From Tricholomella constricta (taxonomy: Eukaryota; Basidiomycota; Agaricomycetes; Agaricales; Lyophyllaceae): 64,000 bases of DNA. The stretch is from assembly GCA_013368375.1 (NCBI GenBank), contig JAACJP010000001.1:930001-994000 (forward strand), written 5' to 3'. Position numbers and translations under genes: made by a program. The notes under the pieces are model-generated. The model made no database searches. It was not told the origin of the DNA and saw only the letters and a program-made list of their open reading frames with translations. Shown in pieces: positions 1,048 to 59,449 of the stretch; position 1 is the stretch's first letter, and each line of letters begins with the position of its first letter.

Positions 1048-1487
1048 TCCACTATCATTCTGGAGCCCACCGCAAGGGTTTTAAAAGCCACCGCCGAACA
1101 CGCAACCTCATTCCTCTTGTTCATAAAAACCTACGACTCGTCGACCATTCCGCCCGCATCCCGACAAGAAGCTAAAGCCCGAACCCTCCGTGCCAAAATC
1201 CGCGCTGCTCTCGGACAAGCCGACACCGACTCAGAATCGCTCTCCCCGTTCTTCCGCTCAGTAACTCCACACCACGCGATCCATAACAACCTCAGCCCGC
1301 TCTTCTATAGCCCTTTGTCGACACTACCGTCGCCTACCCCGACCGATCAAACACCGCTCCTACCACCGATCAAGGAGTTGAATTTAGACTCCCCTATCTA
1401 TCGCCCGCAACCCCAGAAATCTCAGATTCTTCTTCACCGTCGTATTCCCCCTCCCCGTCCCCTATCCCGAAACCAATACCATCTATC
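1048..1487 (+). other. Gypsy-1 untranslated leader
   Basis: This lies between the LTR and the gag start. A TGG-starting candidate primer-binding site (TGGAGCCCACCGC) is at 1061-1073, but I cannot match it to a tRNA. A long open frame runs from the LTR through the leader to 1512. It has no recognisable domain and I do not treat it as a gene. Confidence 0.4.
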
Positions 1488-6700: not shown

Positions 6701-7508
6701 TCCAGCCTTCATCAAAGCGGCCGAACACCTCACAAAGAAATACCACATACACAATATTCGAATCTCGGGCTATAACTCTAGGGCCAACGGACTCGTCGAG
6801 CGGTCCCATTTCGACGTTCGACAATCTCTTTTCAAAGCCGCCGACGGAAACGAAAGCAAATGGTTGCAATCAGCTTATTCGGTTTTCTGGGCCGAACGCG
6901 TCACAATCCGCAAACGAATGGGATGTTCCCCCTACTACGCCGCGACAGGGACTCAACCCCTCCTGCCGCTCGATATTGTCGAAGCCACGTACCTCCAACC
7001 GCCACCCGACTCTATCCTGTCCTCCACCGACCTCTTGACACGTCGCGCGATCGCCTTACAAAAACGGGCGACCGACCTAGAGCGACTGCATTCAGAGGTA
7101 TACGCGGCGCGACGACAAGCGGCGATTCGCTTTGAACGTAAACACGCCAGAACCTTACGCGACTATAACTTTAAACACGGAGACCTCATCCTCATGCGCA
7201 ACACGAAAATCGAGAAGTCACTCAACCAAAAAATGCGATCTAGATACCTAGGACCGCTCGTCGTGATCTCGCGCAACCGCGGAGGCGCATACATTCTCTG
7301 CGAACTGGATGGCACCGTCTTACACCGACCCGTAGCAGCGTTCCGACTCACCCCCTACTTCGCGCGCAACAATATCCTCCTACCCAGTAGCGCTCTGGAC
7401 ATAGATACCAAACGACTCAGAGAACTAGAGGCGACGACGATCACCGACGACGAAGACCGACCCGAAGTCGTAGGCGACGACTCGGAATCGGAAGAAGAGC
7501 AGAACTAA
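3729..7508 (+). CDS. pol: Gypsy-1 Pol: reverse transcriptase, RNase H, integrase
   Basis: The ORF copies the element RNA into DNA and integrates it. The first ATG is at 4068 (1146 residues), but the frame is open and coding-like from about 3729, just after a -1 shift from the protease frame, so translation probably arrives from upstream. From that ATG the order is reverse transcriptase (residues about 130-350, catalytic YIDD), RNase H (about 450-560), an HHCC integrase finger (H..H..C-x2-C, about 755-795) and an integrase core with D in YIDTMHL, D in VTDNGPAF and E in GLVERSH. There is no chromodomain. The tail is acidic. The reading frame is intact over more than 3.4 kb. Confidence 0.9.
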   Translation, partial: DRRKFSYTLEEISRDHGDLALLLEYDPLSYTPTVISFCELLTELNSDATYDAQLASLYVAAAELTAPTIADQSVNTSSTPLERTTRCTILPNNERHSGHHTQSLTSAATDAFVVKIKGVQTKKKYKPVAQKVRSIIASCPDHFRIERNILGDPLANVPTLVPNPPPFQPTGRYTLERKEDLDRKHPDFLTPAERAIMHDLMCKQNLAFAWDDSERGSFRSDFFPPIDIPVVAHTPWIERNIPIPPGIYEEVCDIIKTKLATGVYEPSNSSYRSRWFCTLKKNGKFRLVHSLEPLNRVTIRHSGVTPIPDHVAEQFAGRICGAMLDLFVGYDERLIAPSSRDLTTFQTPFGALRLVTLPMGWTNSVPIFHDDVTHILQPEIPDYTLPYIDDAAIKGPATWYPDPVTGLPKMHPDNADVRFAIWEFFNDVNRILQRMKHCGGTFSGKKLVLCAPQFKVLGHVCTPDGRIPDVDRLALLRNWKSCATLSELRAFLGTVGVLRIFVKNFAHRAHHLVKLTRKDAVFEFGPDQIAAQRDIVEAIAEAKPLVPIDYASDDPVILAVDTSHIAVGFYLCQADPVDRKRRRYNRFGSITLNDRESRFSQPKLEFYGLFRALGALRLYVIGVRNLVVEVDARYIKGMLSNPDIQPSASINRWIVSVLMFHFELVHVKGTFHGPDGLSCRPRQPDDPTDSYDAEEADFEDWVDRMQGLMHIIQPLSQPPSPLHVRQIFTMAKISSKEEMVAVYTDAVPPDSATHELATDSPRQPRIRTDDDTGITDPNTNSADMSYDDVPRTDAAKAQDQRIDAVRQWLADLERPEGLSDDQYATFIRYATGFFLDGTRLWRRDSQGAHKLVARPSTRLEILRSVHDNLGHKRFYATRATLLERFWWPNVRADVVWFVQTCHICQIQQTTKVLIPPVVATPAPLFAKMYIDTMHLPTSNGFKYIVQGRCSLIHFPEWRALRKENSRTLGDWMYEDIICRWGGLREIVTDNGPAFIKAAEHLTKKYHIHNIRISGYNSRANGLVERSHFDVRQSLFKAADGNESKWLQSAYSVFWAERVTIRKRMGCSPYYAATGTQPLLPLDIVEATYLQPPPDSILSSTDLLTRRAIALQKRATDLERLHSEVYAARRQAAIRFERKHARTLRDYNFKHGDLILMRNTKIEKSLNQKMRSRYLGPLVVISRNRGGAYILCELDGTVLHRPVAAFRLTPYFARNNILLPSSALDIDTKRLRELEATTITDDEDRPEVVGDDSESEEEQN
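5925..5943 (+). promoter_or_regulatory. Internal copy of the Gypsy-1 polypurine tract
   Basis: ATCTCAAGTAAGGAGGAGA is inside pol, between RNase H and integrase. It matches 9934-9952 exactly and 11616-11634 with one change. The last copy abuts the 3' LTR and is the expected plus-strand primer. Ty1 and lentiviruses use a central polypurine tract in pol, so a second priming site is possible. Confidence 0.45.
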
Positions 7509-7945: not shown

Positions 7946-9772
7946 TCACCCCACCACGACATCACCGCCCTCAAACCCGTCACCGCCCTCCCCGACTCCG
8001 TCGCTCTCGCCGTCGCCCTCGGCATCCTCGTCGTCGGTGCTCACCGCGCTCCCTTCACTGGAGTCGGACTCACCCGCCGCATCCTCAAGCAACACCGAAC
8101 GTCGCTCCCTCAACAGTCTCAACACGTCCGCTGTACCTTCGACTTGCAGGTAGATTTGTCGGAGCGACCACCTCGTTATCTCTTGCTGAGACTGCAGGAC
8201 TTGCGCTTCCTGCACTAGGACCCGAAGGAAAGCGTGGCGCGAGAACAGGGCGCGGTCGACGTCGGCCAGACCGAAATCGTCTATCATCGCCGTCGAGGCC
8301 ATGTAACCCAGGCCATCCAGGTCCTCGTTACGAAGCAAGGCCTCCGCTTGAGGAAACGGTCCCTGCGTCAAGAAGCCCGCTCCCATTCCAGCAGAGCCAG
8401 CGGCCTGCAACATCGCAAGGCGGTGAGCGGCCGCCGCTAGTTCACGCTCACGCTCCAGGGGATCCACCAGAAACGGCTGAGGGGAGCGGCGCACCACGGA
8501 CGCGGGCGCTACGGGGGCTTCTCCTCCTCAACATCCTCGACGGTAGGGCGCGATATGTTTCGGCGCCGCGATCGCGAACCAGAAGCCTTGGGAACGTCGA
8601 TGGGGACGCCGTCGCGCGTCGTCTCGCACTTCTTAGCGTGAATCTTACAGAGAGCGCAAGGACTGACACCAGGCTTCTGGAGGCAGTCGACGCCAGAATC
8701 CACGCAGCGGTCGCACTAGCCGAAGTCAGCGCCCGACGAAAACAAAGACCGAACCGGTAACCTACCGCCACCTCGCGCACCGAGTGATGTGGGCACTCCT
8801 TCTTAAAGTCCTCGAGGCGCCCGAGCCACTTGTCGGTCGTGCGCCGCTTCCTCTTACCCTTTCCTCGTTCCTCCTCGGGGATTTCCACTACCGATCCTTC
8901 CCCGTCGTCGGCGACGTCGCGTTTGCGCTTACGACCCGACGAGGTCGCCTCACCCTGACCAGCACCCGCGGGCGTCGTACCTACCAGGCTCGTCAGCGGC
9001 ATACCATTAACGGGACTAAAGACGAGCCCCAAGCGCCAGGGAAACTCACGCGCACGACGAGCCCGCGGCAATGACCGAACAGCCTGTCTAATATCAGCAA
9101 CCCGACGCGAAAACACGGCTAAAATGAACGTACCTCGACACCAGCGTCGCTAGAGGCCCGAGGCCCTCCACCGATAGACATACGAGCCGTGAAGTGAGGA
9201 GGCTTGCCCTTCCCTTTGGTGGCAGGCGCAGCGGGGACGCTGCCAGACGCCTCCCCCACGACCGGCAATATGGTTGCCTCCCCACTACCGTGCGCTTGCT
9301 CCACCTCCATCGCCGCCGCAAAAACCGTCTCGACTGGCGGTCCTCCCCCAAGCCCCTCGGGAACAGCCAGTGGCGCCGTGCCAGCGCCTCGCGAAATCTC
9401 AGCAAGCAAACGTCGCTCGCGACGTCGGCGGGTGTAATCGTCCTGCGAAACGACCGAACCAAATCAAGCTACCTGCACGCCGACGAAAAAGAATGGGCGT
9501 ACCTCAGGCTCCAGATCCGCGAATTTTTCCTTCCACTCCCCGTCGTCCTTTATGCGGGACCATATCAAAGTCAGCGCCTCCTGCTCCTCCCGCCATTCCA
9601 ACCGCCCAGGGCCCGCCCCTTGTTTGCGCAGCGCTGCCAGGCCGTCCCGGATGTCCTCGAGCGCCTCAGTGCGCTCTTCGCGGGTGGCGTCGGTGGGGAG
9701 TTGGCACCACCGGACGTAGTCTGTCGCCAGGTACCGCAAGACACGCTTGAAGTCAGAGACGGCGGCAGCCAT
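7946..9772 (-). CDS. Antisense Zn2Cys6 protein, Gypsy-1 copy A (probable frameshift)
   Basis: A spliced gene runs opposite to pol. Exon 1 starts at 9772 (MAAAVSDFKRVLRYL) and ends at 9503. The next exon begins after GTTTCGCAG (EDDYTRRRRERR) and ends near 9133. The third carries two basic stretches (GRKRKR, KGKRKRR) and ends at the GTAGGT donor near 8754. After the acceptor GGCTAG comes a complete binuclear cluster, C-x2-C-x6-C-x8-C-x2-C-x6-C, at about 8640-8717. A helical C-terminal part and an acidic tail follow to 7946. Between the cluster exon and the C-terminal part (near 8515) the frame shifts by one base, so this copy may be broken unless spliced. Function is inferred: a DNA-binding regulator encoded by the element. 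Confidence 0.65.
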
Positions 9773-9933
9773 GGTGGTTGAAACAGAACAGGAACCGAAC
9801 AGGAAGCCGTCACTTAAGACAAACCAGGACGCGCCGTCAGATCTAGTTGCACCGCCACCGACATCCCACGCCACACACGCGCCAGTTCTAGAATTTTCTC
9901 GACTGGACTCCGGCCCGACTGAGGACAGTCGGT

Positions 9934-9952
9934 ATCTCAAGTAAGGAGGAGA
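9934..9952 (+). promoter_or_regulatory. Second polypurine-tract copy, Gypsy-1
   Basis: This lies just upstream, on the antisense strand, of antisense gene A. It is embedded in GAGGACAGTCGGTATCTCAA, which also precedes the true tract at 11616. No LTR follows it. It marks the edge of a duplicated [antisense gene + PPT] module. Confidence 0.55.
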
Positions 9953-10171
9953 CATGACCTACAGAGGGAGCGGCGGCCGACGCCGACAACCAACACCGCC
10001 GATAATAGAACCGACCGAAATAGCGAACCAATTTGCGCCACCGAAGACAAAAAAAAAATCGGATTATAAAGAACGACCCAATTTTAGGGCCCGAACAACA
10101 AAATGGATATATACGGAGTACGCGACCGATAACGAACACAACCCGACCGCAAGAACATGACAAACTCGAAG
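9953..10171. other. Spacer between antisense modules
   Basis: About 220 bp with an A-rich tract near 10050 and no ORF worth reporting. It separates module A from module B. Confidence 0.4.
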
Positions 10172-11473
10172 TCAAGGCGACGAATACTCGCCACCATCGT
10201 CGCGTACGCCACCGTCGACACGGCTTCCACTGCCGCTGCCTCCACTCCTCGAGTTACCCATCGCAGACGCACCAACTAACTCTGTGCGCCGAGCCTGAAG
10301 CAAGTCCAGGACCGACGACGTAGACACGACCTGCTCGTAAAGCTGACGGGACGACGAACGCATGATCTCTTGGCGCGATTCAAGGACTTGAATTTCCTGG
10401 ACCAAAGTACGCAAGAAAACGGTGCGCACCGATAGCGCCCGATCAACATCTGCAAGACCGAACCGCGAAATAACCGACAACGGCTGGGTGAAGCCCAAAC
10501 CACGCAAATCTTCGTTACGAAGGAAGTCCTCAGGGCGAAACACCGGACCCTGATAAAGGAGACCCGCGCCCCGGTCTACCGAACCCGCAGAACGAGTTAC
10601 GACAAGGCGCTGAGCGGCTCTCGCCAGATCGGGCGAATGGACTTCGTCGAACAGCGGAGGGGGCATACAGGCGTCGCAAAAATGTCCCTCTACTGCGCAC
10701 GACACAAACTGGTGCGGTGCTGGCCGAAACAACCCCACTTCGTTCGTCTCGCATCGTCTAGATTGAATCTCGCAAACCGCGCAAACATCAATGTCGCTGC
10801 GCTGAACGCAGTCCAAGCCGTAGCTCACACAACGATCGCACTAGCCAATAGATGAGCGACAAAACAAGGACGCAAGAGGACCGACGACTTACCGCTTCGC
10901 TACGAGTGTAATGCTCAGGGTACTCCTTCTTAAATTCCTCGAGACGTTCCAGCCACAAGCGGCGTCGCATCCCTTGTGCCGCCAATACCGACTCCCGGAG
11001 ATCTCGACGACAGACTCTTCTTCGTCCCCGTCCCCAACAGAGGAAGCGCACGAACGCTCCCGAACGACAGACCCTGCCTCTTCTTCGGCAAAGGCGGCGC
11101 GCATACGCTCCCGGGCGACCGTCTCTCGGTGAGGGTAATCGGACTACCAACTAGCGCGTTAGTACTCTGCAGAAACGACCAAATAACCAGCAAGCGAACG
11201 CACACTCGGTTCTAGATCCGCGAACCGCTCGGACCATTCGGGGTCGGACTCGATCGTAGACCATATGTTAGATAATGCCTCTTCCTCGTCGCTCCACATC
11301 CAACGCCAGGGACTAGCCACCGGCGACCTAAGCACTTCGAGGCTGTTCGACAAGTATTGCAGCACACGGGTGCGCGCATAACGAGGGGAGTCGGCCGACA
11401 GCGATTGCCATTCATCCCAGTCTCGTTCCAAGAAGCGGAGAGTGCGCTGAAGGTCGACAGGAGGTCTCGACAT
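10172..11473 (-). CDS. Antisense Zn2Cys6 protein, Gypsy-1 copy B (possibly damaged)
   Basis: This is a paralogue of copy A in the same orientation. It starts at 11473 (MSRPPVDLQRTLRFLERDWD), and its first exon matches copy A (DLEPSV against DLEPEV at the end). The segment ahead of the cluster (LERLEEFKKEYPEHYTRSEA) aligns with copy A (LGRLEDFKKECPHHSVREVA). A GTAAGT donor and TTGGCTAG acceptor put the intron directly before the first cysteine. The cluster is C-x2-C-x6-C-x8-C-x2-C-x6-C (CDRCVSYGLDC, then CAVCEIQSRRC). The C-terminal domain (GLADVDRAL..FLRTLVQEIQVLESRQEI) matches copy A well. Near 11000 the frames of the acidic linker and the FKKEY segment differ, and the basic stretch of copy A is missing, so an indel is likely. 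Confidence 0.65.
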
Positions 11474-11615
11474 AACGATGGGTAAACCGAACAAGAACCT
11501 GGATATATATATGTTCGCCAGCGCGTCGGCACCGTCACTTCCTCCTATCCCGGCCCCTCTTTTCCAAGACGTACACCCCCTGACCGATGCACGGGACCGA
11601 CTGAGGACAGTCGGT

Positions 11616-11634
11616 ATTTCAAGTAAGGAGGAGA
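11616..11634 (+). promoter_or_regulatory. Polypurine tract of Gypsy-1
   Basis: The purine run AAGTAAGGAGGAGA directly precedes the TG that opens the 3' LTR, which is the position expected of the plus-strand DNA primer. Confidence 0.75.
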
Positions 11635-12668
11635 TGATGAGCACCGTCCCGCGCTGTACACAGAACCTGCCCGCTATATGGACAGTAGCCGCCGCGCCAC
11701 GACGAACACGGTCCCGGATGCGACCAAAGCGCCGAACCGACCGACCGACAATACGACCGACCGACCGACAATACGACCAAACGACCGACGCACCGACCAA
11801 GAAACAGAGTAACTTGAAACGCCAGTTCTCCTCTCTGGGCGCACGGAGCACGGAACACCGTATAACCTGTCAACGCCCGCGCACGTTTGAATGCCAAGGT
11901 CTCAACCCGGCGACAACCAAACCCGATTTGAAATTATCCTAGGAAACACCTTTGCCCAGCCGTTCGCAGAGAGGATCCGGCCGTACCACGGAGTTCCGCA
12001 CCCAAGAGCCACTACCGGTCACAAATCCACCACCGATCATACATCCGACCCGACGCCTCGAGCCGATCAAAAGCCCCTTTGCCAAGCCAAAGAGCGCCAC
12101 ACTCTCTAAAAAGCGTCGCGCGGTACCAAGCTTGGCGGCGCTTCTCCCAATAAACCAGTAAAACACCTGCCTCACCGGCTCGCGAGAGGCGAGTCGGTCG
12201 CATAGTATAAAAACATACCCATGTACTACCTACTGCCTCCAGTGAATTACAGCCCGTATTTTCCCTCACACTCAGAGTGAATAGCTCGAAACCGTCGTCT
12301 CTGTCGTCTCTGCACCGTCCTCGTCGTATAAACCATCGCCACTGTCGTAAATCTCGTAACTGCCGTCTCTGTCGCCTTGTACTCGTCGCCCGAACCCGTG
12401 AGTTCTCCGTATTAACCTCGTTCGTCTCGTTGTCGCACGGCCGACACCCAAAGTCGCGTCGCTGATCCGTTCCACTCGAGAACGTCGCGTACCATCACCC
12501 CCGTCGCGTTGTTGTCGGTTCGACTGGCTACGAGTCGGATCGTCTCTTACCTTCGTCAAACAACCCTTACAAGCCCTGCACACTCGCGTGTTTGGGAACT
12601 TTTAACATTTCTCGCCCCCCATAGTTGTTAGTTGTTTTGTTGTTGTGCACAGCATCTACAGGCCTTCT
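11635..12668 (+). repeat. 3' LTR of Gypsy-1
   Basis: It starts with TGATGAGCACC right after the polypurine tract and matches 1-1047 from 11651 onward. It has a TATAAAAA box near 12206 and the CCG triplet array at 11731-11795. It ends within the shared GGCCTTCT. The next base belongs to the RNase H coding sequence of the Ngaro-like host element, which shows that Gypsy-1 inserted into that gene. Confidence 0.85.
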
Positions 12669-12907
12669 AGCTCTATCAACGTCCTAATTCACTCCGACAA
12701 CTTCGGGGCCATCGGTGCCCACCACAAGCACCGCAGCCCCAATCTCCCCATCAACTTATGTACCCGTCGAACATACGCCACACTCATCCAGCACCTAATT
12801 ATACCGTCCTTCGTCTACGTCGAATCCGAACTGAATCCTGCCGACCCGATCTCGCGTGGAGTCTCGGGCGCCCCTAGAACTTTTCTCACACGCGCGTTCC
12901 CCTTGCC
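12669..12907 (+). pseudogene. Ngaro I RT/RNase H C-terminal fragment
   Basis: The frame reads INVLIHSDNFGAIGAH, then ESELNPADPISRGVSG, which are the final RNase H motifs of DIRS/Ngaro reverse transcriptases (compare SDNSGVVGAL and NPADAPSRG in Ngaro II on the minus strand near 45550-45750). The coding sequence is cut at its left by Gypsy-1 and at 12907 by Gypsy-2. It resumes at 23534 as RELISFFNV followed by a stop. The protein cannot be made from this locus. Confidence 0.75.
12903..12907. repeat. Target site duplication of Gypsy-2 (left)
   Basis: TTGCC lies directly before the 5' LTR, and the same five bases follow the 3' LTR at 23534-23538. Confidence 0.95.
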
Positions 12908-13252
12908 TGTCACGACCGCCCCTAAACTCGCAATCACTTACGCTTTCCCACGCACGTCCACCGTATATATGATGGCACCACTTCTTTTCAGACTCCTTAC
13001 CTCGATATTACCTATTGTTAAGACTAGTTCTCGTTCTCGTTCTCGTTTCTCTCTCTCTCTCTCAATACATTCGGCTTCACACTCGTATCGCCTGAGCTCG
13101 TTCGTTCGAATCAGCCCCGGTGAACACCTTCATCAACGCTCACGACCTCCGAATACTCCTTCGTAGGCCGTCTTCCTTGACGAACGTCAGGCCTGTCCGC
13201 TTCGGTGGTTCCAGAATAACTCTGTAACCGGCGTGCTACACAGGTCCTAACA
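12908..13252 (+). repeat. Gypsy-2 5' LTR
   Basis: 345 bp, TG...CA, identical by eye to 23189-23533. It has a TATATATG box near 12963 and a CT repeat near 13050. No TGG-type primer site follows. The next bases are TAATATCGAGG, so priming may be of the self-primed kind known for Tf1/sushi relatives, which I cannot confirm. Confidence 0.95.
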
Positions 13253-13281
13253 TAATATCGAGGTCCTCCCACCCACCGGAC

Positions 13282-16146
13282 ATGTCCTCGACGATAGTGG
13301 AGCCTAACACAACCATCCGCTATCAAAACTTCGAAGGTCCCTCCTTCACTCAAAGGAGACCTTCACCACCACCCTTCGAAACCTCCCCTGCCTCAACAGG
13401 ACCTCCGATGCAAGGGACTTTCGGATCCAACAGGTCCAGGTTGGAACACCAGATCTTCCAACCTGGCCAACATGAGGGGGATTTTTCCTCAGTCAGTCAG
13501 GACCCACGACGACCCCTACCCCGAACCCCCTCAAACGTATTCAACCCCTCTTACCAACTCGCCACCCCCAACTATCCCCCCTTACCACCATCTGCAACGA
13601 CCTCCGGACCTCCGCTTTCAAGTAACCAGACTCCCGGATCGTACTACGAAAGGTTGAGGCACCCGGAGATGTTCCAGAGGAGGGATAGGGCACGAGAGGA
13701 GGGACAGGGACAGTTCGCTCGTCAACAAAACCCCTTTCTACACGGTTCAGACCACGAAAGGATACTCTACGAACTCCGCATGACGCGAGAGGAGTTTTCA
13801 CGACAAGCGCACGAGCTCCTAGTCGAAACCATGGGGATGGATCATCAACCCCGAACACCGGAACAATGGGCCAACCTCGTGTTGTCGACCATGCAACTGC
13901 ACGAAGCCCATCGATTACCCCCACAACTGACGGTGTTGCTACAAATGGGGGGAAACGAAAGAAGGTTACGCGCTCTGGCTGGAGAAATCCAGACGTCCAA
14001 CGAGGGAAGAAGATTCTCCGACCCCCAAAGCGCGGGACGTTCCTTCCACATGCCAATTCAGGAGCCCGTTCCCTCCAGAATCGAAACTAGATTCGAAGAA
14101 CCTCCACGAGCGACAAGCACGGTCAATACGCAGACAGCTTCGGCTCTACTCAGGAGGATGAACCAAGGGAACGCTCCCCCCAGCCAAGAAGGGTTCGAAC
14201 CCACCGTCACACCAGGGGCAGACGCTCGAAGAGCTCCGACGTTCGGGTTCTGGGGAGCCCACAACTTACAAAGAATCCCCGAAGAGAACCCCCCTGTCGA
14301 AGGACCGTTTTCCAGGCCAAATTCGGGTTTTCAGGGCCCACAGAGGACCTTCGCAAACCAAGAAGGAGTACCTCCGAGGGAACCTGAGAACATTCCCCTA
14401 CCTCCGTCGGAACGGGGAATCCCAACGCCACTGTCGTACGCCCACAGCTACGAACTACGCGAAGAAAACTCGGAAAGAAGAGAGGGAGCACCCCCTAGGG
14501 CACGAGAAGACTGGCGCCAAACACCACCTCATCTGGCAAGTCAGAACAGGAGGTCACCACAAGGCCCACGCCCAATCTCCCCAAGAGAACGACGTGGAAT
14601 CGGAGCGGACCCCGGCCCCGGTCAAAACGTAAACATCCTCGACGGAAGGCAAGGGACCCAACAACAATTCCCCCAGTTCGAACAATACAGAACTGGATAC
14701 AACCCCGGACCAGCCCCACCCATACCCGGCGGACGACCGAACCCCCAGTACAACGGACCACCTCCACAGCCCCAACCACCTCCGGGATCTTCGGGACCAC
14801 CTACCCCGAGAGGAACTCAATGGGGAAACGGCCCCGGAGGACCAGGAGGGGGAGGAGGAGGTTATTGGGGAAACGGCCCCGGAGGAACAGGAGGTCCTGG
14901 AGGAGGGGGAGGTCACGGAGGATACGGACCACCACAAGGACCAGGAGGCCCGGGAGGCCACGGAGGTCCCGGAGGGGGAGGAGGAGGCCACGGAGGAGGA
15001 GGAGGAGGAGGCCCACCCGGAAATTCGGGAGGAGGCCAATTCACAAACCCTCAACGACCCCCACCTCCACCGCAACAGCTCTTAGGCCCAAACCAAAACC
15101 TGACCCCGGAACAGTACCGACACCTCCTAAACCTGGAATCGAAAATCGACATCAGGAAACCGGACCCCTTCACTGGAAAAGAACCGAGGAGATGGAAAAC
15201 CTTCGTCACGGAATGCCTAGTAACGTTTCAAGCCAAGGCGATCACCTACGAACAGGATCACCTGAAGGTGTCATTCGCGAGCTCCTACTTAAAGGACGGA
15301 GCTATGGACTACTTTCGGCTGCAACTCACGTACAACCCCCAACACCCAATGTTCACGAATTGGGAAGGATTCGTACACGAATTAGGATCACGCTTCGGAA
15401 TACCGAACTCGAGAGTGGAAGCCGAGAACAACATTTCGCGACTGAAAATGAAGGAATGGGAAAAGTTCACAGCATTCATCATCAAGTTCGAACAAGAAGC
15501 GTACGAAACAGGCTGGAACTGGGTAGCACTACAGTTCACACTCCGGAAAGCGCTCCCCCAACGAATCCTTAACGTACTGGCCATCGCACCAAGCCCCGAA
15601 ACCTACGAAGGTTACCGAGATCTGGTCACCCAAATCGACCGGAGGTACTGGGAACATCGCATAGAAAATCCAGAGTCCTACAAACCCCTCTGGGCGAATA
15701 ATGCGAACACCTCCAACACCTCCGCACGACCTCCGATGGGACCTTCGGCCGGACCCGCAAGCCGCACGACGCCGCAAACGGCTCAGGGGAACAGGAACGC
15801 ACGCTTGAACGCCGAAAGTCACGATCAGGACCCGGACTCAGGTAAGGAAGGTAAGGCGCAAGACCAAGAAATCGCATGGGATGACGAAGAGGCACTACAA
15901 GCCAACAACTTCGGATTCAAGAAGTCAACGCGCCCCTGGGTGAAGATCGATGAAGACGTAAAGCAACAACGAATTCGAGACAAGGCCTGCATCCTATGCG
16001 GTGACCTGGAACACTGGATGCGCGACTGCCCAACAGCAAACGCCATGGGCAGAGCCACCTACCTCATCGGCGACGACATCTTCGAATTCCATCACAAGAC
16101 AGAAGAGGGAAACGCGGGGGCGATTCAGGACTTACCCGGGCTCTGA
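13282..16146 (+). CDS. gag: Gypsy-2 Gag with long disordered N-terminus
   Basis: The ORF is 954 residues, longer than most Gypsy Gags. The first 600 or so residues are rich in Pro, Gly, Gln and Arg, with a Gly-rich stretch at about 510-590 and a poly-Pro segment before residue 600. A retrotransposon Gag domain follows at about 620-800 (FTNWEGFVHELGSRFG, KFEQEAYETGW). A CCHC knuckle of spacing C-x2-C-x4-H-x4-C (CILCGDLEHWMRDC) is near residue 900. The start is the first ATG 30 bp after the LTR. The ORF ends at TGA 16146 within the predicted frameshift stem, so most ribosomes should stop here and yield free Gag. Confidence 0.9.
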   Translation: MSSTIVEPNTTIRYQNFEGPSFTQRRPSPPPFETSPASTGPPMQGTFGSNRSRLEHQIFQPGQHEGDFSSVSQDPRRPLPRTPSNVFNPSYQLATPNYPPLPPSATTSGPPLSSNQTPGSYYERLRHPEMFQRRDRAREEGQGQFARQQNPFLHGSDHERILYELRMTREEFSRQAHELLVETMGMDHQPRTPEQWANLVLSTMQLHEAHRLPPQLTVLLQMGGNERRLRALAGEIQTSNEGRRFSDPQSAGRSFHMPIQEPVPSRIETRFEEPPRATSTVNTQTASALLRRMNQGNAPPSQEGFEPTVTPGADARRAPTFGFWGAHNLQRIPEENPPVEGPFSRPNSGFQGPQRTFANQEGVPPREPENIPLPPSERGIPTPLSYAHSYELREENSERREGAPPRAREDWRQTPPHLASQNRRSPQGPRPISPRERRGIGADPGPGQNVNILDGRQGTQQQFPQFEQYRTGYNPGPAPPIPGGRPNPQYNGPPPQPQPPPGSSGPPTPRGTQWGNGPGGPGGGGGGYWGNGPGGTGGPGGGGGHGGYGPPQGPGGPGGHGGPGGGGGGHGGGGGGGPPGNSGGGQFTNPQRPPPPPQQLLGPNQNLTPEQYRHLLNLESKIDIRKPDPFTGKEPRRWKTFVTECLVTFQAKAITYEQDHLKVSFASSYLKDGAMDYFRLQLTYNPQHPMFTNWEGFVHELGSRFGIPNSRVEAENNISRLKMKEWEKFTAFIIKFEQEAYETGWNWVALQFTLRKALPQRILNVLAIAPSPETYEGYRDLVTQIDRRYWEHRIENPESYKPLWANNANTSNTSARPPMGPSAGPASRTTPQTAQGNRNARLNAESHDQDPDSGKEGKAQDQEIAWDDEEALQANNFGFKKSTRPWVKIDEDVKQQRIRDKACILCGDLEHWMRDCPTANAMGRATYLIGDDIFEFHHKTEEGNAGAIQDLPGL

Positions 16147-16168
16147 ATCGCGAAGAGCTGAAACCGGG
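16107..16168 (+). promoter_or_regulatory. Programmed -1 frameshift signal, gag-pol of Gypsy-2
   Basis: The heptamer G GGA AAC (16107-16113) is in register with the gag frame. A 6-nt spacer follows. A perfect 9-bp stem then pairs 16120-16128 with 16143-16151, and the gag stop lies in its 3' arm. Loop bases CCCGG can pair with CCGGG at 16164-16168 to form a pseudoknot. The -1 frame is open and continues directly into pol. Confidence 0.8.
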
Positions 16169-19100
16169 CCTTGACACTAAACTACGCGCAACGGCACTAT
16201 CGACAACGGACACCCGCACTGTAACACTCTCCTCCCACTCGTCCCTGGCATTCTTAATACACCTCACGCCAAACGGAGGAGGAGAAAAACCCGAAAATAC
16301 GCTTATCGACAGCGGAGCTACCGACAACTTCATGGACTCCGACATGGCGACATCACGCGGGCTCCACCTTGAGGAGCTCAAACCCCCAATAAACCTTTGC
16401 CTATTTGATGGAGAACTCTCCGCATCGGGCAAAATCACACACTATACCACCAACGACGTCAAATTCAGTGACGGCACCACGCAGAGGATAAGGTTCCTCC
16501 TTACGAAACTCCACGAGACAGCTGCGATAGTGTTGGGACTATCATGGTTGAAGGAGGTCAACCCCCGAATAAACTGGAAAGACCTCTGCATCACGCTACG
16601 AAGGGGGTCAAACGGCAAAATTGAAGGATCACTACCGGACCTCCGAAGGAAAAAGGAAGTCGTCCCAACGACAACAGGCACAGGAGATCAACGCTTACCC
16701 TCGCGGTCAGCTCGCTCCTTCACGATCGAAGTACAGTTAGAAGGATCCTCAACGCGACTACGGGCACTTATCGATAGTGGAGCGGCGGGAAATTTCATAG
16801 CACAATCCTCGTGTACGAAACCGGAACCTCTCGCCAGCCCCATGACCCTACAACTGTTCGACGGAAACCCCAGCGGAGGTGGAGCCATTTCACATCATAG
16901 TCCCGAAACAATCAAACTTGAGAACGGACTAGAGTATAAGGTCGACCTCCTCATAACACAGTTACACCCGGCCACGCCACTAGTGCTCGGATTACCTTGG
17001 TTACGGGAAGCAAATCCGGACATCGACTGGCGGGAAATGTCCATGACCATGGAACAAGGGGCAGGACTAGCCGCGATATCGCTTTCCCAGAAGACGCAAT
17101 GGAGAACCGTGACCCTTGAGGAGGAGGAAGACGTCGAAGCTCCGAAACCAGCCAACCCCCTTTCGGAAAAACAACCCCTCCTCAGGGACCTCCTGGATGA
17201 CGACAACGATCAGAACGACACCTCCAGCGATAACATGAAGGAGGAAGACACTCGCCCAAACACCAACGAACCCCAAGAGGAAATACCAACACCGACAACC
17301 GAGTCACCAGAGGAGATAACGGGACGGAAACGCACCCGAAAACCACCCCCACCGAACTACTTCCCTCCAAACGTTCCGAGGTCCAAATTCAAACCCCACC
17401 CCAAACAGAAATCCGCAACGTCCCCAACGACAGAAACACAGGAAGAAGAGGAAACCAACCCGGAAACGGAGGCCGAAGACGAAACCGGAGAGGGAGAAGA
17501 GGATGTCGAAACACAAAACATCCGCCTGATCGGAGCGGCGCCATTCGCGAACCTCATCAGGGACGGAGCCACAGCGTTCCAACTACACATCTCCCCCACC
17601 GAAAAGGAAGAACACCTCCATGCCAATAACACCTCCGACGATGAACCCAAGCAACCAAAGACAGAAAAGGAAATCTTCGAGGAAGTCGTACCTCCGGAGT
17701 ACAGGGACTTCGAAGACGTATTCTCAGCGGGCGAAGCGAAAACCATCCCCCCACACCGACCCTACGATCACACAGTGGAACTCGACGAAAACACTACCCC
17801 TCCCTTCGGAAAGATATACAACATGTCCGAACTGGAGTTGAAAGCATTGAAGGATTACATCGACGAGATGCTCGGAAAAGGGTTCATCCGACCTTCGAGT
17901 TTGTCAGCGGGAGCTCCGGTACTGTTCGCAAAGAAGAAGGACGGATCACTCCGGCTATGCATGGACTATAGAGGATTAAATCGGATCACCAAGAAGAACC
18001 GTTACCCTCTACCTCTGATCGGAGACCTCATAGACCGACTTCAAAAAGCGAAAGTATACTCGAAGATCGACCTCCGAGTGGGCTACAACAACGTCCGCAT
18101 AGCTCCGGGACACGAATGGAAGACAGCCTTCCGCACTCGTTATGGACTTTTCGAATACCTGGTAATGCCTTTCGGCATGACAAACTCACCCGCGACATTC
18201 CAACACTTCATGAACGACATCTTCCACGACATGAACGACGTGTTCGTAGTGATCTACCTCGACGACATTCTGGTTTTCTCGGAGACCTTAGAGGAACATC
18301 ACGGACACGTTCGGAAGGTCCTCGAGAGGCTCCGGAAACACAACCTTCATGCGAAACCGGAGAAATGCACGTTTCACACTACGGAGATCGAATACCTAGG
18401 CGTCATCGTATCCCCCGGCGGAGTAAAGATGGATCCAGGAAAAGTCGACGCGATCCGGAAGTGGCCTAGACCGACGAAGGTCAAGGAACTCCAATCTTTC
18501 CTAGGCTTTGCAAACTTCTATCGGCGGTTTATCGACAATTACTCGGGCATAACGAAGAGGTTAAACAAACTCACGCAAAAGGACACAATCTGGAAATGGG
18601 ATTCCGAATGCGAAGGAGTCTTCGAACTATTGAAGAAAGCATTCTCCTCCGCACCCATCCTACGACACTTCGATCCTCAACTACCGGTGATATTAGAGTG
18701 CGACGCTTCCAACTTCGCCATAGCGGGGATCATCTCCCAATTTGACGAGACATCACAAGACTTACGTCCTGTCGCCTTCTACGCGAGAACTATGATAGAC
18801 GCGGAGCTCAACTACGACATCTATGATAAGGAGCTCCTAGCAATCGTGGAAGCGTTTAAGCAATGGAGGGCCTACCTAGAGGGATCTCCCCACCGCATTC
18901 AAGTGTACTCCGACCACAATAACCTACAGTATTTCTCTACGACCAAGCAACTCAATCGCAGACAAGCACGATGGTCGGAATGCCTGGCGAACTTCGACTT
19001 CCAAATAAACTACAGACCCGGAAGATTAGGAGCGAAACCAGATGCCCTCACGCGACGGCCAGACGTGTATCCCAAGAAAGGGTTCGAACAGGATCATAAT

Positions 19101-20612
19101 TCGTTCAACAACCGCATCATCATACCTCCCGAACGATTGAACGCGGCCCTAATACTGAACGAGGAGCTCCTACTAAACAACATCCGGAACACACCCCGAG
19201 ACGATTTCTTCGAGAGACACGCACCCAAACCCGGAGATGAGACCTCCGCGTTCTCCCTATCCGATGATGGCAAACTACTCTTTCGCGACGGAAGAATCTA
19301 CGTACCGGACCATTCCAGATTACGCCTCGACATCCTACAGCAACATCACGACCACAAACTGCGCGGACATCCAGGGATCAGAAAGACCACACAACTCATC
19401 ATGAGGACTTATTTCTGGCCCGGATTAAGGAAGGAGGTCACTCGATACGTCCGAAGCTGTTATACCTGTAAAAGAGCGAAGGTCCCACGCCATAGCCCAT
19501 ACGGACTATTGAAACCACTCCAGATTGGACGAAGGGCGTGGGCCTCCATATCCATGGACCACATTGTAGAATTACCGGAATCGGATGGGTACGACGCCAT
19601 ACTAGTCGTAGTATGCCGCCTCACCAAGCAGGGCATCTTCATACCCTGTCACACAACGGACACAGCAAAGGAACTCGCTCAATTATTCTTGGAACATGTC
19701 TTCTCCAAGCACGGACTGCCCGACGACATCATATCGGACAGAGGCACCCTCTTCGTCTCCCGTTTCTGGAGCTCGCTATGTAAAGCCCTGGACATCAAAT
19801 CAAACCTCTCGACCGCGTATCACCCGGAGACCGACGGCCAGACGGAACGAGTAAATCAGACACTGGAACAATACCTCCGGATGTACGTGAACTATCTCCA
19901 GACCAACTGGCGAATTCAGCTCCCTCTGGCGGAATTCACGTACAACAATACGACCCATTCGACCACGGGAGTTTCCCCTTTCTTCGCGAACAAGGGCTAT
20001 CACCCCCGCTTGACAATCTCTATAAAAGATATACCGGCGAAAGAAGCCCAGGAGGTAGCCGTAGACCTCCGGACCCTCCAGGACTACCTCCGCAAAGAAA
20101 TAGAGATCGCAAATGAAGCTTACAAACAATTTGCAGATAAGAAACGGGACCCTACACCAGACTGGGCCGTAGGAACGGAAGTATGGCTCGACTGCCGGAA
20201 CATCAAAACGAAACGCCCCTCCAAAAAGCTGGACCACCGGAGACTGGGCCCCTTCAAAATCCTGCAGAAGATCTCCAGCCACGCGTATCGACTGGAACTA
20301 CCTCCGACACTGAAAGGGATTCACAATGTCTTCCACGTCAAGTTGCTCGAGAAGCACGAGCACGAGAAATTCCCCGGACGATCAAAACCACCTCCGCAGA
20401 CGATCGAAGTCGAGGGCGAAGAACACTACGAAGTGGGACAGATCCTGGATTCCCGAACACGAGGGAAACACGTCCTCTACTTGGTACGATGGGAAGGGTA
20501 CGGCCCCGAAGACGATACCTGGGAACCAGCGGAGAATATAGAAGGAGCAAAGGACATGGCCCTTAAATTCCACCGACTATTCCCAAGAAAACCACGGGAC
20601 CCCACAATTTAA
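16113..20612 (+). CDS. pol: Gypsy-2 Pol: two retropepsins, RT, RNase H, integrase, chromodomain
   Basis: Translation should enter by -1 frameshift at 16107-16113. The first in-frame ATG (16332) is too late, because it follows the protease motif LIDSGATDNF. Two protease-like domains are in tandem: the first has IDSGA near 16301 and IVLGLSWLKEVNP, the second IDSGA near 16771 and LVLGLPWLREANP. An acidic linker follows. Next come reverse transcriptase with YLDD (near 18258), RNase H (ECDASNFAIAG), an HHCC finger (H..H, then SCYTCKRAK), and an integrase core with D in SMDHIVEL, D in ISDRGTLF and E in DGQTERVNQ. A C-terminal chromodomain is near 20410-20560 (YLVRWEGYGPEDDTWEP), which in relatives guides integration to marked chromatin. 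The frame is intact throughout. Confidence 0.93.
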   Translation, partial: RGGDSGLTRALNREELKPGLDTKLRATALSTTDTRTVTLSSHSSLAFLIHLTPNGGGEKPENTLIDSGATDNFMDSDMATSRGLHLEELKPPINLCLFDGELSASGKITHYTTNDVKFSDGTTQRIRFLLTKLHETAAIVLGLSWLKEVNPRINWKDLCITLRRGSNGKIEGSLPDLRRKKEVVPTTTGTGDQRLPSRSARSFTIEVQLEGSSTRLRALIDSGAAGNFIAQSSCTKPEPLASPMTLQLFDGNPSGGGAISHHSPETIKLENGLEYKVDLLITQLHPATPLVLGLPWLREANPDIDWREMSMTMEQGAGLAAISLSQKTQWRTVTLEEEEDVEAPKPANPLSEKQPLLRDLLDDDNDQNDTSSDNMKEEDTRPNTNEPQEEIPTPTTESPEEITGRKRTRKPPPPNYFPPNVPRSKFKPHPKQKSATSPTTETQEEEETNPETEAEDETGEGEEDVETQNIRLIGAAPFANLIRDGATAFQLHISPTEKEEHLHANNTSDDEPKQPKTEKEIFEEVVPPEYRDFEDVFSAGEAKTIPPHRPYDHTVELDENTTPPFGKIYNMSELELKALKDYIDEMLGKGFIRPSSLSAGAPVLFAKKKDGSLRLCMDYRGLNRITKKNRYPLPLIGDLIDRLQKAKVYSKIDLRVGYNNVRIAPGHEWKTAFRTRYGLFEYLVMPFGMTNSPATFQHFMNDIFHDMNDVFVVIYLDDILVFSETLEEHHGHVRKVLERLRKHNLHAKPEKCTFHTTEIEYLGVIVSPGGVKMDPGKVDAIRKWPRPTKVKELQSFLGFANFYRRFIDNYSGITKRLNKLTQKDTIWKWDSECEGVFELLKKAFSSAPILRHFDPQLPVILECDASNFAIAGIISQFDETSQDLRPVAFYARTMIDAELNYDIYDKELLAIVEAFKQWRAYLEGSPHRIQVYSDHNNLQYFSTTKQLNRRQARWSECLANFDFQINYRPGRLGAKPDALTRRPDVYPKKGFEQDHNSFNNRIIIPPERLNAALILNEELLLNNIRNTPRDDFFERHAPKPGDETSAFSLSDDGKLLFRDGRIYVPDHSRLRLDILQQHHDHKLRGHPGIRKTTQLIMRTYFWPGLRKEVTRYVRSCYTCKRAKVPRHSPYGLLKPLQIGRRAWASISMDHIVELPESDGYDAILVVVCRLTKQGIFIPCHTTDTAKELAQLFLEHVFSKHGLPDDIISDRGTLFVSRFWSSLCKALDIKSNLSTAYHPETDGQTERVNQTLEQYLRMYVNYLQTNWRIQLPLAEFTYNNTTHSTTGVSPFFANKGYHPRLTISIKDIPAKEAQEVAVDLRTLQDYLRKEIEIANEAYKQFADKKRDPTPDWAVGTEVWLDCRNIKTKRPSKKLDHRRLGPFKILQKISSHAYRLELPPTLKGIHNVFHVKLLEKHEHEKFPGRSKPPPQTIEVEGEEHYEVGQILDSRTRGKHVLYLVRWEGYGPEDDTWEPAENIEGAKDMALKFHRLFPRKPRDPTI

Positions 20613-20849
20613 AAAGACACTCGACGAACACTCACGCACACCAACACATCACGAAAATTATGCAAATTTTCCCAAGACTAAACTCTACTATACGTATTCA
20701 ACCACCAGCGCAACAATATCACACAAAGAAAAAATATCAAGAAAAAAAGAAAAAAAAAAAAAAAAAAAAAAAACAAACGAACGAACTCCGGACTGTAAAT
20801 ATTCAGCAAAAAAAATAAACGCAGGCCAAGACGCTGCAGAAGGGACCGA
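20613..20849. other. Spacer between convergent pol and antisense gene
   Basis: An A-rich stretch (long A run at about 20745-20772) separates the stop codons of pol and the antisense gene. It may hold poly(A) signals for both strands. No gene seen. Confidence 0.5.
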
Positions 20850-22965
20850 CTACTCGATGCGACGACGCTTAGAGGGACCCGCACTGGAAGAAGAACCGCC
20901 CTCACGATCACCCCCCACCTCCCCAACCAACCCTATCTCCAGGGGACGCATCGACGCAATGTCCTGCTCGTCGTCGGCGATCAACTGAGACTGAGATACG
21001 AACTCCGCCAAGGCACCTTCGCGAGTAAGAGAAGGGCGATGAAGAGCAAGGAAATGCTCGAACGTGGGGAACGGCGACTCGGGATCGACGGGGGGCGGAA
21101 CAGCTCCAGGAGCGAGTGCCGCTCAAGAATCTTGTGGGCGCCATCGATGATACTTCGGACTGGCGACGCCTCCAACTCGACGAGGGCGCGACGCAAAGCA
21201 CCATCCGCGATATACATATCGGACGCGAAGGCGGTACGCGCAAGGTCGAGGGCTACGAAAAGTCTTAGAAACAAGAAGGAGAAAATGAAGGGAATCGAAA
21301 CTCACCGTCAACGCGAGTACGGAGGTCCAAGGCGTGACCACGCCAATGATCCCTAACCTCCTGAAGGTGGACAACGTGCCCCTGCAAACCAGCAACCTCA
21401 TCCTGAAGAACCGACACCTCCATCCGAAGATCCTCAACCTCCGCGTCACGATCGACGTCTACGACCTCCGAAGTCTGCGCCTGCAGATGAAGGAAACGCT
21501 CACGTTCATCGGTGAAGTCGGCCAATACGCCACGAAGATGGGACTTGGCACGTTGACCCTCGACCCGGAGAAGCTCGACTTGAACAGAGAGGGCCTGCGC
21601 GCGCGCGACCTCCTGGTCATAGAGACGTTGAAGACGGAGGTACTCCTCAGACGAGGGAGGGGAGGGAACCGGAGCAGCAGGGGGGGTCGAAATCAACATG
21701 GCGGGGGGGGAAGAGGGCAAAACGGGTGAAGAAGAGCCTGAGGAGGATGACCCTTTTAAAAAGAGAGGCCCCGAAGGGCCGGCGATGGGGGAATCCGGAG
21801 ACTCGGTGCGCACAATGGGCCCAGAACGACGAACGGGGACAAGCGAAACCGAACTATCGCGGGAGGAGGAGGGAGAAGGGCCAGGGATAGGCGAAGAGCG
21901 CACCTCCTGAACGGACAAGCGCGCACCCCTACGGCCAACAGGCACAGACTTTCGACCCTGGCCTCGCGTACCGCGAAAAAAGGCGCGAGGCGGGGGAGCA
22001 CGAGGAGGAGGAACAGCACCGGACCCTTCAGGGGATGTGGAAACAACAGGAAGAGGAGGGGGGAGCGGTAAACGCAAGGCGCGACGGATACTGGTAAAGG
22101 ACATCGCAACGCCAGTGCGAGAGAAAGCAAAGCCTTCCGCACGAGAGCGCAACCACGCCAAGGGAATCCCCAACTGCCTAGCGGCCACTTCTAGGCCATG
22201 CTCCAACGAAAGCGAACACAGGGAGTGCGCCGCACGGCAGTCGACACAGGGCAGGGTCCCGCGAAGACGGACCTCCTGAAATCGACAGGACAGCCGACGC
22301 TCCCGACAACGATCACACTAACGAAGACCCCAAAATGGAATCAACAATCGATCGCAGAAAAAGGGCAACACTTACCGGTGCATGCGTCTCACACCACGCC
22401 AAGGAAGGGGGAACCCGCACAGCGGTACGCAGGATCTCCGCCAACAGCTCATCCGTCAAAAGGGACCCCCAGGACAACGAAGTCGCCGCCGGACGTGACA
22501 CAGGATCGCTGGCCGGTTCGAACTCAACCTCTGGAGTGGAGGAACGAGGACGCCGGATCTGTCGAGATCGAACCGGCAGACGGATGACCAGCCGATGATC
22601 GGGAATTGAGGGAGGTGCGGGAGAAGATTCAGGGACACAGGATCGCTGGCCGGTTCGAACTCAACCTCTGGAGTGGAGGAACGAGGACGCCGGATCTGTC
22701 GAGATCGAACCGGCAGACGGATGACCAGCCGATGATCGGGAATTGAGGGAGGTGCGGGAGAAGATTCGGGGACCGCCCCGACACTCCCATCGACAAGTGT
22801 GACGATCCCAGGAAGAGAGGACGTCGGGGAAACGGGTCGGGGTACGCCAAGGAACGCCACACGCGCCCGATCTTCGACGGACAGCTGCGCCAACTCGGAA
22901 TCGCGCAAAATCGTGCTAGGGTCAACGGAGGCGGGGGCCGCGATATCGAGATTGAAGGACGACAT
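20850..22965 (-). CDS. Antisense Zn2Cys6 protein of Gypsy-2 (broken by 137-bp duplication)
   Basis: A spliced minus-strand gene converges on pol. The start is at 22965 (MSSFNLDIAAPASVD). The exon ends at SLAWCETHAP with a GTAAGT donor. After acceptor TTCGTTAG the cluster begins: C-x2-C-x6-C-x12-C-x2-C-x6-C (CDRCRERRLSC, then CVDCRAAHSLC) at about 22215-22312. Downstream are a Pro/Ser-rich region and a long coiled coil (leucine-rich, about 21310-21600), then a GTGAGT donor and CGTAG acceptor into ALDLARTAFASD. The terminus is KRRRIE (stop at 20850). A near-perfect 137-bp tandem duplication in the first exon shifts the frame, and another frame change sits near 21120, so this copy probably makes no full protein. 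Homology to the Gypsy-1 antisense genes is mainly positional plus the cluster and intron. Confidence 0.7.
22497..22770. repeat. 137-bp tandem duplication inside the antisense gene
   Basis: Blocks 22497-22633 and 22634-22770 are nearly identical, with about one difference. 137 is not a multiple of three, so the duplication changes the reading frame of the antisense exon. Reading through one copy only would join PASDPV to SRPAATSLSWG in frame. Confidence 0.8.
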
Positions 22966-23175
22966 GAGCAGGACGAAGAGAAGATGGAGGAGGAACAAAC
23001 AACCTAAGTTTTCTCTCTTTCGATCTCCGAGATCCTCAAAAAACACCCACAAGGACCTACAACCGAGACCGACACGTGCCCCTCACGTGACCGCGCGCGA
23101 CCCAGAAAGGAGAATAACCGCCACACTCCCCGTATTCGAACATTTCTTTTTCCGCGTCTCAGTGGCTCGACGCTT

Positions 23176-23188
23176 GAGAAGGGGGTAA
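23176..23188 (+). promoter_or_regulatory. Gypsy-2 polypurine tract
   Basis: GAGAAGGGGGTAA directly precedes the TG of the 3' LTR. Confidence 0.8.
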
Positions 23189-59430: not shown

Positions 59431-59449
59431 CACTGTTGTTGTTGTTGTT

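Follow-up and report, generated by a model that had tools for sequence, protein, structure and literature searches.

The window analysed here is a 64,000-nucleotide stretch of the Tricholomella constricta genome. It contains two Gypsy elements, Gypsy-1 and Gypsy-2, whose minus-strand genes A, B and C each encode a six-cysteine cluster. The features are as follows.

1..1057, plus strand: Gypsy-1 5′ LTR, starting 16 bp before the window (G000:C1:929985) (blastn, TSD boundary)
3196..7508, plus strand: Gypsy-1 pol frame and, scoring below the Pfam cut-off, a protease-like frame (Pfam)
7946..9772, minus strand: Gypsy-1 antisense gene A, with three predicted introns (9502-9443, 9133-9088 and 8765-8716)
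8626..8715, minus strand: six-cysteine cluster of A, CDRCVDSGVDCLQKPGVSPCALCKIHAKKC, spacing x2-x6-x8-x2-x6 (motif search)
9915..9932, unstranded: dyad CCGACTGAGGACAGTCGG, upstream of gene A; a copy of the purine-rich tract comes next
10172..11473, minus strand: Gypsy-1 antisense gene B, with two predicted introns (11203-11144 and 10892-10841)
10751..10840, minus strand: six-cysteine cluster of B, CDRCVSYGLDCVQRSDIDVCAVCEIQSRRC, spacing x2-x6-x8-x2-x6 (motif search)
11597..11614, unstranded: dyad CCGACTGAGGACAGTCGG upstream of gene B, adjoining a polypurine-like tract and the 3′ LTR
11635..12678, plus strand: Gypsy-1 3′ LTR (blastn)
11736-11789, inside the Gypsy-1 3′ LTR: tandem 20-bp unit rich in TCGGTCGG
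12908..13253, plus strand: Gypsy-2 5′ LTR (blastn)
13282-16146, plus strand: Gypsy-2 upstream ORF, presumed gag, with no Pfam match
16332-20612, plus strand: Gypsy-2 pol with chromodomain (Pfam)
20850..22965, minus strand: Gypsy-2 antisense gene C, whose intron (22375-22318) ends at the first cysteine codon
22216..22317, minus strand: six-cysteine cluster of C, CDRCRERRLSCRFQEVRLRGTLPCVDCRAAHSLC, spacing x2-x6-x12-x2-x6 (motif search)
23022..23034, unstranded: dyad GATCTCGGAGATC, 56 bp 5′ of the gene C start codon
23189..23534, plus strand: Gypsy-2 3′ LTR (blastn)

Antisense genes in two Gypsy elements

Both elements have the paired LTRs and target duplications of Ty3/Gypsy LTR retrotransposons. 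The Gypsy-1 LTRs are 86% identical (blastn) and flanked by a 4-bp target duplication, ACGT, whereas the Gypsy-2 LTRs are 346 bp each and 100% identical, and both flanks read TTGCC. In Gypsy-2 pol the Pfam domain order is RVT_1, RNaseH, H2C2, rve (below cut-off) and chromo. The only Pfam matches in the long pol ORF of this Gypsy-1 copy were RNaseH and the integrase zinc domain (H2C2); neither RT nor a chromodomain was found in that ORF.

Motif search combined with element mapping confirmed that all three genes sit between pol and the 3′ LTR, and the cysteine spacings described for them were found directly on the minus strand. The preliminary description was mistaken in assigning A and B to two Gypsy-1 copies. 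A and B are a paralogous gene pair within one Gypsy-1 element; the B exon of the window shares 45% identity with a related A exon. The six-cysteine motif occurred in none of 60 simulated (Markov) 64-kb windows; this result and the dN/dS values given below rule out chance open reading frames. The only other six-cysteine match in the window is a simple repeat at 59434-59523.

Conservation and selection across the genome

In the T. constricta genome, 102 of 110 gene-C loci are antisense, mostly about 0.7 kb past Gypsy-2 pol with a near-constant gap. Likewise, 127 of 143 typed A/B rows are antisense to Gypsy-1 pol, and both A and B occur, by our count, at 52 of the 73 Gypsy-1 pol loci with a match. 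All six cysteines are kept at 30/30 C and 28/30 B loci in the best-scoring set, so loss of the cysteines between copies, which would have spoken against the original proposal, was not what we found. Internal stops are absent from 72 of 77 full-length C-exon rows. The proposal was also open to challenge from related elements lacking the gene. In this respect it stood for near relatives of both families in this genome, nearly all of which carry the genes, but not for two Gypsy-2 relatives with pol identity of 45-47%, in which no such cluster was found within the 4 kb read beyond pol.

The comparison of dN/dS across copies that had been suggested points to purifying selection, with values of 0.17-0.33 for most pairs. 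Between C subfamilies dN/dS was 0.19-0.33 at dS 0.24-1.05; over the cluster part of C it was 0.05-0.10 in four pairs, and the part outside the cluster evolves faster. Values for B were 0.17-0.32 in 21 pairs, and those for A, 0.08 and 0.18, come from one pair of copies. Positive selection was not supported as the source of the fast divergence: of 21 C pairs, 20 had dN/dS below 1, and the remaining value (1.50) came from a near-identical pair with very few changes. Third-position changes are in excess in the antisense genes. These results support the view that A, B and C are conserved protein-coding genes with predicted introns that are maintained by purifying selection. Values of dS are discordant between pol and the antisense gene (for example 0.017 versus 0.391 for L070/L071), which points to recombination between copies.

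These data bear on the possibility that the antisense RNA is what matters, the transcript interfering with the sense RNA or triggering its silencing while the frame is incidental. Although non-coding antisense RNAs have been reported for other retroelements (PMC7264820), the low dN/dS, the third-position excess and the frame-preserving introns largely refute this explanation at the level of the protein, and we consider it very improbable.

A shared intron position before the first cysteine

An AG lies immediately 5′ of the first cysteine codon in 58/58 best-scoring copies with a cluster and in 5/5 divergent pieces. In eight copies checked, predicted introns of 58, 67, 70 and 75 bp were all frame-restoring. 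Zn_clus has 22 matches elsewhere in the genome, and eight host Zn_clus loci were checked for the place of the intron. None of the five in which Cys1 is visible (L001-L004, L008) has an acceptor directly before Cys1, the acceptor of L001 being 2 nt away; at L005-L007 the matched piece starts after Cys1, and the two acceptors flagged there precede later cysteine codons.

The cluster resembles a class common in fungi, and there are the Zn_clus matches elsewhere in the genome; a host zinc-cluster gene might have been captured and be hitchhiking without function. Such passive capture is hardly credible: it is refuted, as it stands, by the dN/dS values, which indicate long purifying selection, and it is also opposed by the presence of the genes in two families and in most close copies, and by the difference in intron position from the host loci.

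Relationship to fungal zinc-cluster proteins

The Zn2Cys6 (PF00172) consensus is CX2CX6CX5-12CX2CX6-8C, and the spacings in A, B and C fit it. In Gal4-type proteins the cluster is mostly near the N-terminus, and in Gal4 basic residues between Cys2 and Cys3 contact DNA. The antisense proteins differ from PF00172 proteins in that their cluster is internal and they score below the Pfam Zn_clus gathering cut-off of 21 bits: C scored 11.8 and A 14.3, and B gave no match. Among divergent copies, L075 scored 18.6, L076 17.3, L077 14.5 and L079 16.4 (this piece stops before Cys6), and L078 gave no match; the best score of any antisense protein tested was thus 18.6 bits. Basic residues between Cys2 and Cys3 are present in C and in the divergent A copies L075 and L076 but absent from A and B of the window. 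Membership of the Gal4-type family is left unsupported, given the profile scores and the missing basic stretch in A and B of the window.

Profile comparison of A/B with C gave a probability of only 6%, yet aligned the six cysteines in register; with so low a probability the comparison does not establish a common origin of A/B and C. No homologue was found in the protein collection at E 1e-3 for gene C or the A/B alignment, although 7982 of 7983 scored candidates there matched pol, including Lentinula and Termitomyces proteins. Since a search scores only some 8000 candidates, those with the most 5-residue words in common, and gene prediction in metagenomes handles spliced genes poorly, the missing homologues are weak evidence. 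Scans of viral contigs with A1, A2 and a pol alignment gave no match, and sequence searches of the PDB gave no convincing one. AlphaFold single-sequence models (mean pLDDT 52 and 45) were too poor for a structure search, and hints of coiled coils came from weak family matches only.

Conserved dyads upstream of the antisense genes

The Gypsy-1 dyad has 109 sites in the genome and its reversed control none; among the sites listed, 46 of 50 precede an A/B cluster exon by 689-1780 bp. The Gypsy-2 dyad has 87 sites (reversed control, 0), of which 83 precede a same-strand C cluster exon, at a median distance of 577 bp. In six aligned copies the C dyad is invariant and its flanks are variable. The LTR part of each Gypsy-1 locus examined (n=28) contains 2-6 copies of TCGGTCGG, a motif with zero occurrences in the Gypsy-2 element. 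GATCTCGGAGATC, CCGACTGNNNNCAGTCGG and the 20-bp LTR unit are candidate target DNA for the cluster regions of C and A/B, and the upstream dyads lend independent support to the regulatory idea. Because the Gypsy-1 dyad abuts a polypurine-like tract, part of the 41-bp block may be kept for replication.

A proposed model for self-regulation

We propose, tentatively and at a little under an even chance for the model as a whole, that each Gypsy family encodes its own trans-acting regulator of its own promoters and copies. The antisense gene would be transcribed from a promoter between the gene and the 3′ LTR, that of gene A being an internal copy of this region. Splicing would yield a protein with an internal Zn2Cys6-like cluster, presumed to bind zinc and DNA, and a C-terminal part, probably helical, through which it could dimerise. 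Introns would persist because the template copied during retrotransposition is the sense RNA, where they stay unspliced. The dimer may then bind the conserved dyad that precedes the gene encoding it, resulting in autoregulation, and the Gypsy-1 protein would probably also bind the CGGT-rich tandem LTR units. Through such binding the protein would act in trans on all copies and set the strength of family transcription, in whichever direction. In six copies compared, LTR type was not coupled to antisense-gene type, which counts against subfamily-specific pairing of protein and LTR; a gene co-evolving with its own LTR was not seen.

A more elaborate version, which we regard as possible though doubtful, gives the two lineages a regulator of common origin, with the same phase-0 intron directly before Cys1, the cysteines in the same register and an invariant operator in each. 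A fungal transcription-factor module would have become a trans-acting self-regulatory circuit, which was duplicated in Gypsy-1 along with the operator and primer tract, and which recombination exchanged among copies.

Alternatively, the protein could bind non-coding repeats of the element and lift host silencing, as does VANC of the Arabidopsis VANDAL elements (PMC5735166, PMC10398659). VANC is encoded by its element and works in trans on motifs that lie within the non-coding DNA of that element (PMC5735166); its likeness to the antisense proteins would lie in the proposed working mode only, VANDAL being a plant DNA transposon with arrayed short motifs. Element-specific conserved motifs in non-coding DNA and the faster evolution of C outside its cluster are consistent with anti-silencing, but the cluster and dyad have stayed conserved instead of diverging together, and the Gypsy-2 element of the window has a single dyad, with no array of motifs noticed in it. 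We judge this explanation unlikely.

Equally unlikely, in our estimate, is that the cluster serves as an accessory module for binding RNA or protein (related to nucleocapsid, integrase or export) and that the dyads are host-factor sites driving the antisense promoter. The subthreshold Zn_clus scores and the missing DNA-contact stretch in A and B of the window would fit such a module, as would antisense retroviral accessory genes such as HBZ (PMC11963269, PMC7264820). Against it are the basic residues of gene C and of the divergent A copies, and the near-fixed upstream dyad of both families, which fits a dimeric DNA binder.

Precedents and significance

A transcription factor encoded by the element on its opposite strand had been called unfamiliar from textbook Gypsy elements. 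Antisense genes located in the interval from pol to the 3′ LTR are described for plant Retand, Grande, RIRE2 and PvRetro13 and for fungal Boty (PMC11963269, PMC7264820). The Retand-lineage antisense ORF has a TRP28 domain (PF04195) that is predicted to bind DNA, and a regulatory role has been proposed for it (PMC11963269). Pfam found no TRP28 match in the A, B and C proteins. Retand is a non-chromovirus of plants only, and the available part of its description mentions no zinc cluster (PMC11963269). The Boty-like Gypsy of Botrytis is a fungal element whose antisense gene brtn, attributed to Zhao et al. 2011, occupies the same position (PMC7264820, PMC8365987), but its host is an ascomycete. 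None of the papers listed by searches of the open-licence PMC literature describes a zinc-cluster antisense gene of a fungal Gypsy element in its title or abstract opening.

What the antisense genes of LTR retrotransposons do has yet to be settled for plants and fungi alike. In the present case the regulatory hypothesis is directly testable, because the cluster is recognisable and the candidate operator of each family is short, exact and near-fixed in position. If true, it would represent promoter-level control encoded by a retrotransposon, comparable with the accessory regulators of complex retroviruses and using the hallmark transcription-factor module of fungi.

Frame disruptions in the window copies

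None of the window copies of A, B and C has an intact frame. Comparison of translations with relatives revealed one frame change in gene A, downstream of the cluster, and one in gene B; the exon with the A cluster has an open frame of 256 aa in the relative L072. Exon 1 of gene C is disrupted by a 137-bp tandem duplication at 22497-22770, which is also present in the copy at G000:C1:845563. Since this duplication exists twice, a broken antisense gene may not prevent copying of the element. Copies of C free of the duplication are common.

Three antisense genes in two adjacent Gypsy elements

Two adjacent LTR retrotransposons, Gypsy-1 and Gypsy-2, lie in the window (G000:C1:930001-994000) with pol on the plus strand. 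A preliminary description had claimed that these elements carry minus-strand genes encoding Gal4-type Zn2Cys6 clusters. A six-frame scan bore out the three minus-strand clusters (genes A, B and C) and their cysteine spacings, x2-x6-x8-x2-x6 in Gypsy-1 and x2-x6-x12-x2-x6 in Gypsy-2. The scan also returned one simple-repeat artefact at 59434, and no clusters occurred in 60 Markov-simulated windows.

Elements and antisense genes in the window
Start 16 bp ahead of the window, end 12678, plus strand: Gypsy-1; LTRs 86% identical, 4-bp target duplication ACGT
7946-9772, minus strand: gene A
10172-11473, minus strand: gene B
12908-23534, plus strand: Gypsy-2; LTRs 346 bp and identical, TTGCC at both flanks
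20850-22965, minus strand: gene C, part of Gypsy-2

Only RNaseH and integrase zinc domains were recognised in the long Gypsy-1 pol frame, and Gypsy-2 pol contains RT, RNaseH, integrase and a chromodomain. Among named relatives, the top pol identities were to Termitomyces and Lentinula proteins (70-75% over the part searched), which makes an Agaricomycete source probable. Genes A and B had been assigned to separate Gypsy-1 copies. We found instead that they are paralogues within one element, since the A exon of a related copy, L072, is 45% identical to the window B exon and lines up with it at each of the six cysteines. The A, B and C frames are all damaged in the window copies: A and B have one frame change each, and exon 1 of C contains a nearly perfect 137-bp tandem duplication (22497-22770). 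As this duplication is also found in the copy at G000:C1:845563, it is not limited to the window locus, and an element or segment carrying it has been copied. Because the antisense proteins score under the Pfam cut-off for Zn_clus, we term them Zn2Cys6-like rather than members of that family.

Position of the antisense genes across the element families

When the C cluster exon was searched against the genome (44.1 Mb, 118 contigs), 121 matches were found, merging to 110 loci. At 102 of these, Gypsy-2 pol is directly upstream on the opposite strand, usually separated from the exon by 660-740 bp (range -33 to 1270). The eight C loci without pol were four contig ends and four partial matches. No C gene was found in the genome search for 17 of 119 merged Gypsy-2 pol loci, 12 distant (45-47% identity) and five close. 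Two of the distant relatives, L073 and L074, were read and had no cluster within 4 kb. A further search found the gene at one close locus (C24:573247), two are contig ends (C21:734224 and C40:9), one is a fragment (C73:40326), and the last is C66:8325. For Gypsy-1, 127 of the 143 A/B matches examined are antisense to pol and within 5.5 kb of it; the distance from pol is mostly about 0.4-0.5 kb for gene A and about 2.5-3.1 kb for gene B. The other 16 had no pol within 5.5 kb, and one pairing was same-strand. No A/B match accompanied 18 of the 91 Gypsy-1 pol matches examined.

This architecture resembles that of plant Retand, Grande, RIRE2 and PvRetro13 and fungal Boty, for which two papers describe an antisense gene between pol and the 3' LTR (PMC11963269, PMC7264820). 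No description of antisense zinc-cluster genes in fungal Gypsy elements was found in the titles and abstract openings listed by searches of openly licensed PMC papers.

Coding constraint and cysteine conservation

The C exon had no internal stop in 72 of 77 full-length matches. Comparison of dN/dS across copies, proposed in the preliminary description, gave values mostly well below 1. Among representative C copies it was 0.19-0.33 at dS 0.24-1.05 in 18 of 21 pairs, the others being two close pairs (0.47 and 0.53) and a near-identical pair with a handful of changes (1.50); the matching pol part gave 0.04-0.41. The first 75 codons of C, comprising the cluster and the following block, had values of 0.05-0.10, versus 0.32-0.38 in the rest (four pairs). 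Values for B were 0.17-0.32 (21 pairs) and for A 0.08 and 0.18 (two pieces, one pair of copies). The cysteines were likewise conserved between copies: all six were intact at every one of 30 C loci and at 28 of 30 B loci, the two exceptions, L062 and L068, having lost one each. Both sets comprise the best-scoring matches and are hence a favourable sample. Even among divergent pieces, with identity down to 28-31%, four of five retained all six; the fifth, L079, stops short of the sixth cysteine.

Copies seem to exchange modules, as identity, dS and LTR type are discordant. Elements with an antisense exon 57-79% identical to that of the window are mostly 90-98% identical in the C-terminal part of pol (73-87% in four), and dS between L070 and L071 is 0.391 in the antisense exon versus 0.017 in pol. 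LTR type and gene type do not go together in the copies compared (L012/L071, LTRs 96% and exon parts 62-81% identical; L036/L070, LTRs 95%). Exchange presumably occurs by template switching.

A predicted intron precedes the cluster

AG immediately precedes the codon of the first cysteine (Cys1) in 58 of 58 best-scoring copies with the cluster and in 5 of 5 divergent pieces. The gene C intron, with donor GTAAGT or GTATGT, is 58, 67, 70 or 75 bp depending on subfamily. Its predicted removal places a start codon in frame with the cluster and leaves exon 1 stop-free (8 of 8 copies checked); the window copy fails this check because of its 137-bp duplication. Since some C copies contain further frame-keeping donors, the splice site is given here as predicted. 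Retrotransposon replication passes through sense RNA; with that RNA as template, spliceosomal introns could persist in an antisense gene. None of five host Zn_clus loci with a visible Cys1 has an intron at this place, which weakly favours a possible common origin of A/B and C; profile comparison of A/B with C gave a probability of only 6%.

Conserved dyads upstream of the antisense genes

The 41-bp blocks upstream of A and B are 95% identical to each other, despite saturated synonymous sites between the two genes (dS about 2.3 within L072). The block includes a dyad, CCGACTGNNNNCAGTCGG, and a purine-rich tract on the LTR side. This dyad has 109 exact genome sites, and the reversed control has none. 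In the A/B list examined, 46 of the 50 dyads listed precede an A/B cluster exon by 689-1780 bp; one of the other four, C1:1205205, is 1593 bp ahead of a weak match at C1:1206798. Gene C has an unrelated upstream dyad, GATCTCGGAGATC, invariant across six aligned copies amid variable sequence. Its 17-base form occurs at 87 genome sites (control 0). With the exon set enlarged by five gene pieces from a further search, 83 of these sites precede a same-strand C cluster exon by 452-1134 bp. The exact 13-base C dyad is absent from two of the 30 C loci (L024 and L029), and the exact Gypsy-1 dyad is absent upstream of B in two of the 30 B loci (L047 and L067). Neither dyad recurs without mismatches inside an LTR within the window.

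Cluster and dyad are both conserved across subfamilies, as would fit one protein and one site that work together in trans on every copy. The likeliest reading, if short of probable, is that each antisense gene encodes a dimeric regulator that binds DNA and would act on its own promoter and on the element family. Two less likely rivals deserve serious consideration. By analogy with VANC, as presented in two papers (PMC5735166, PMC10398659), the protein could be an anti-silencing factor, although we regard this as unlikely. An RNA- or protein-binding accessory factor seems equally doubtful; the comparison here is with retroviral antisense accessory genes, as described in PMC11963269 and PMC7264820.

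The Gypsy-1 LTR contains a tandem 20-bp unit rich in the 8-mer TCGGTCGG. Each of the 28 Gypsy-1 loci examined has 2-6 copies of this 8-mer in its LTR part, and the Gypsy-2 element has none. The polypurine-like tract of Gypsy-1 is repeated internally, upstream of gene A (9933-9952), and this second copy might be a central polypurine tract.

Neighbouring repeats

An extra, apparently solo Gypsy-1 LTR is found at L009 3323-4372 (G000:C1:926322-927371), flanked by the short duplication GCGG; it shares 91% identity with the 3' LTR in the window. An LTR-like stretch at 60461-60837 has about 73-74% identity to the Gypsy-2 LTR region. A Copia-type element on the minus strand (38638-44047), with gag_pre-integrs, Pol_BBD and SH3_retrovirus domains, is probably a young insertion, because its bounding 256-bp repeats are 99% identical. 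A large inverted repeat at 54859-59093 has arms of up to 253 nt, 100% complementary and about 2-4 kb apart; both of its sides are made up of tandem units 108-175 bp long.
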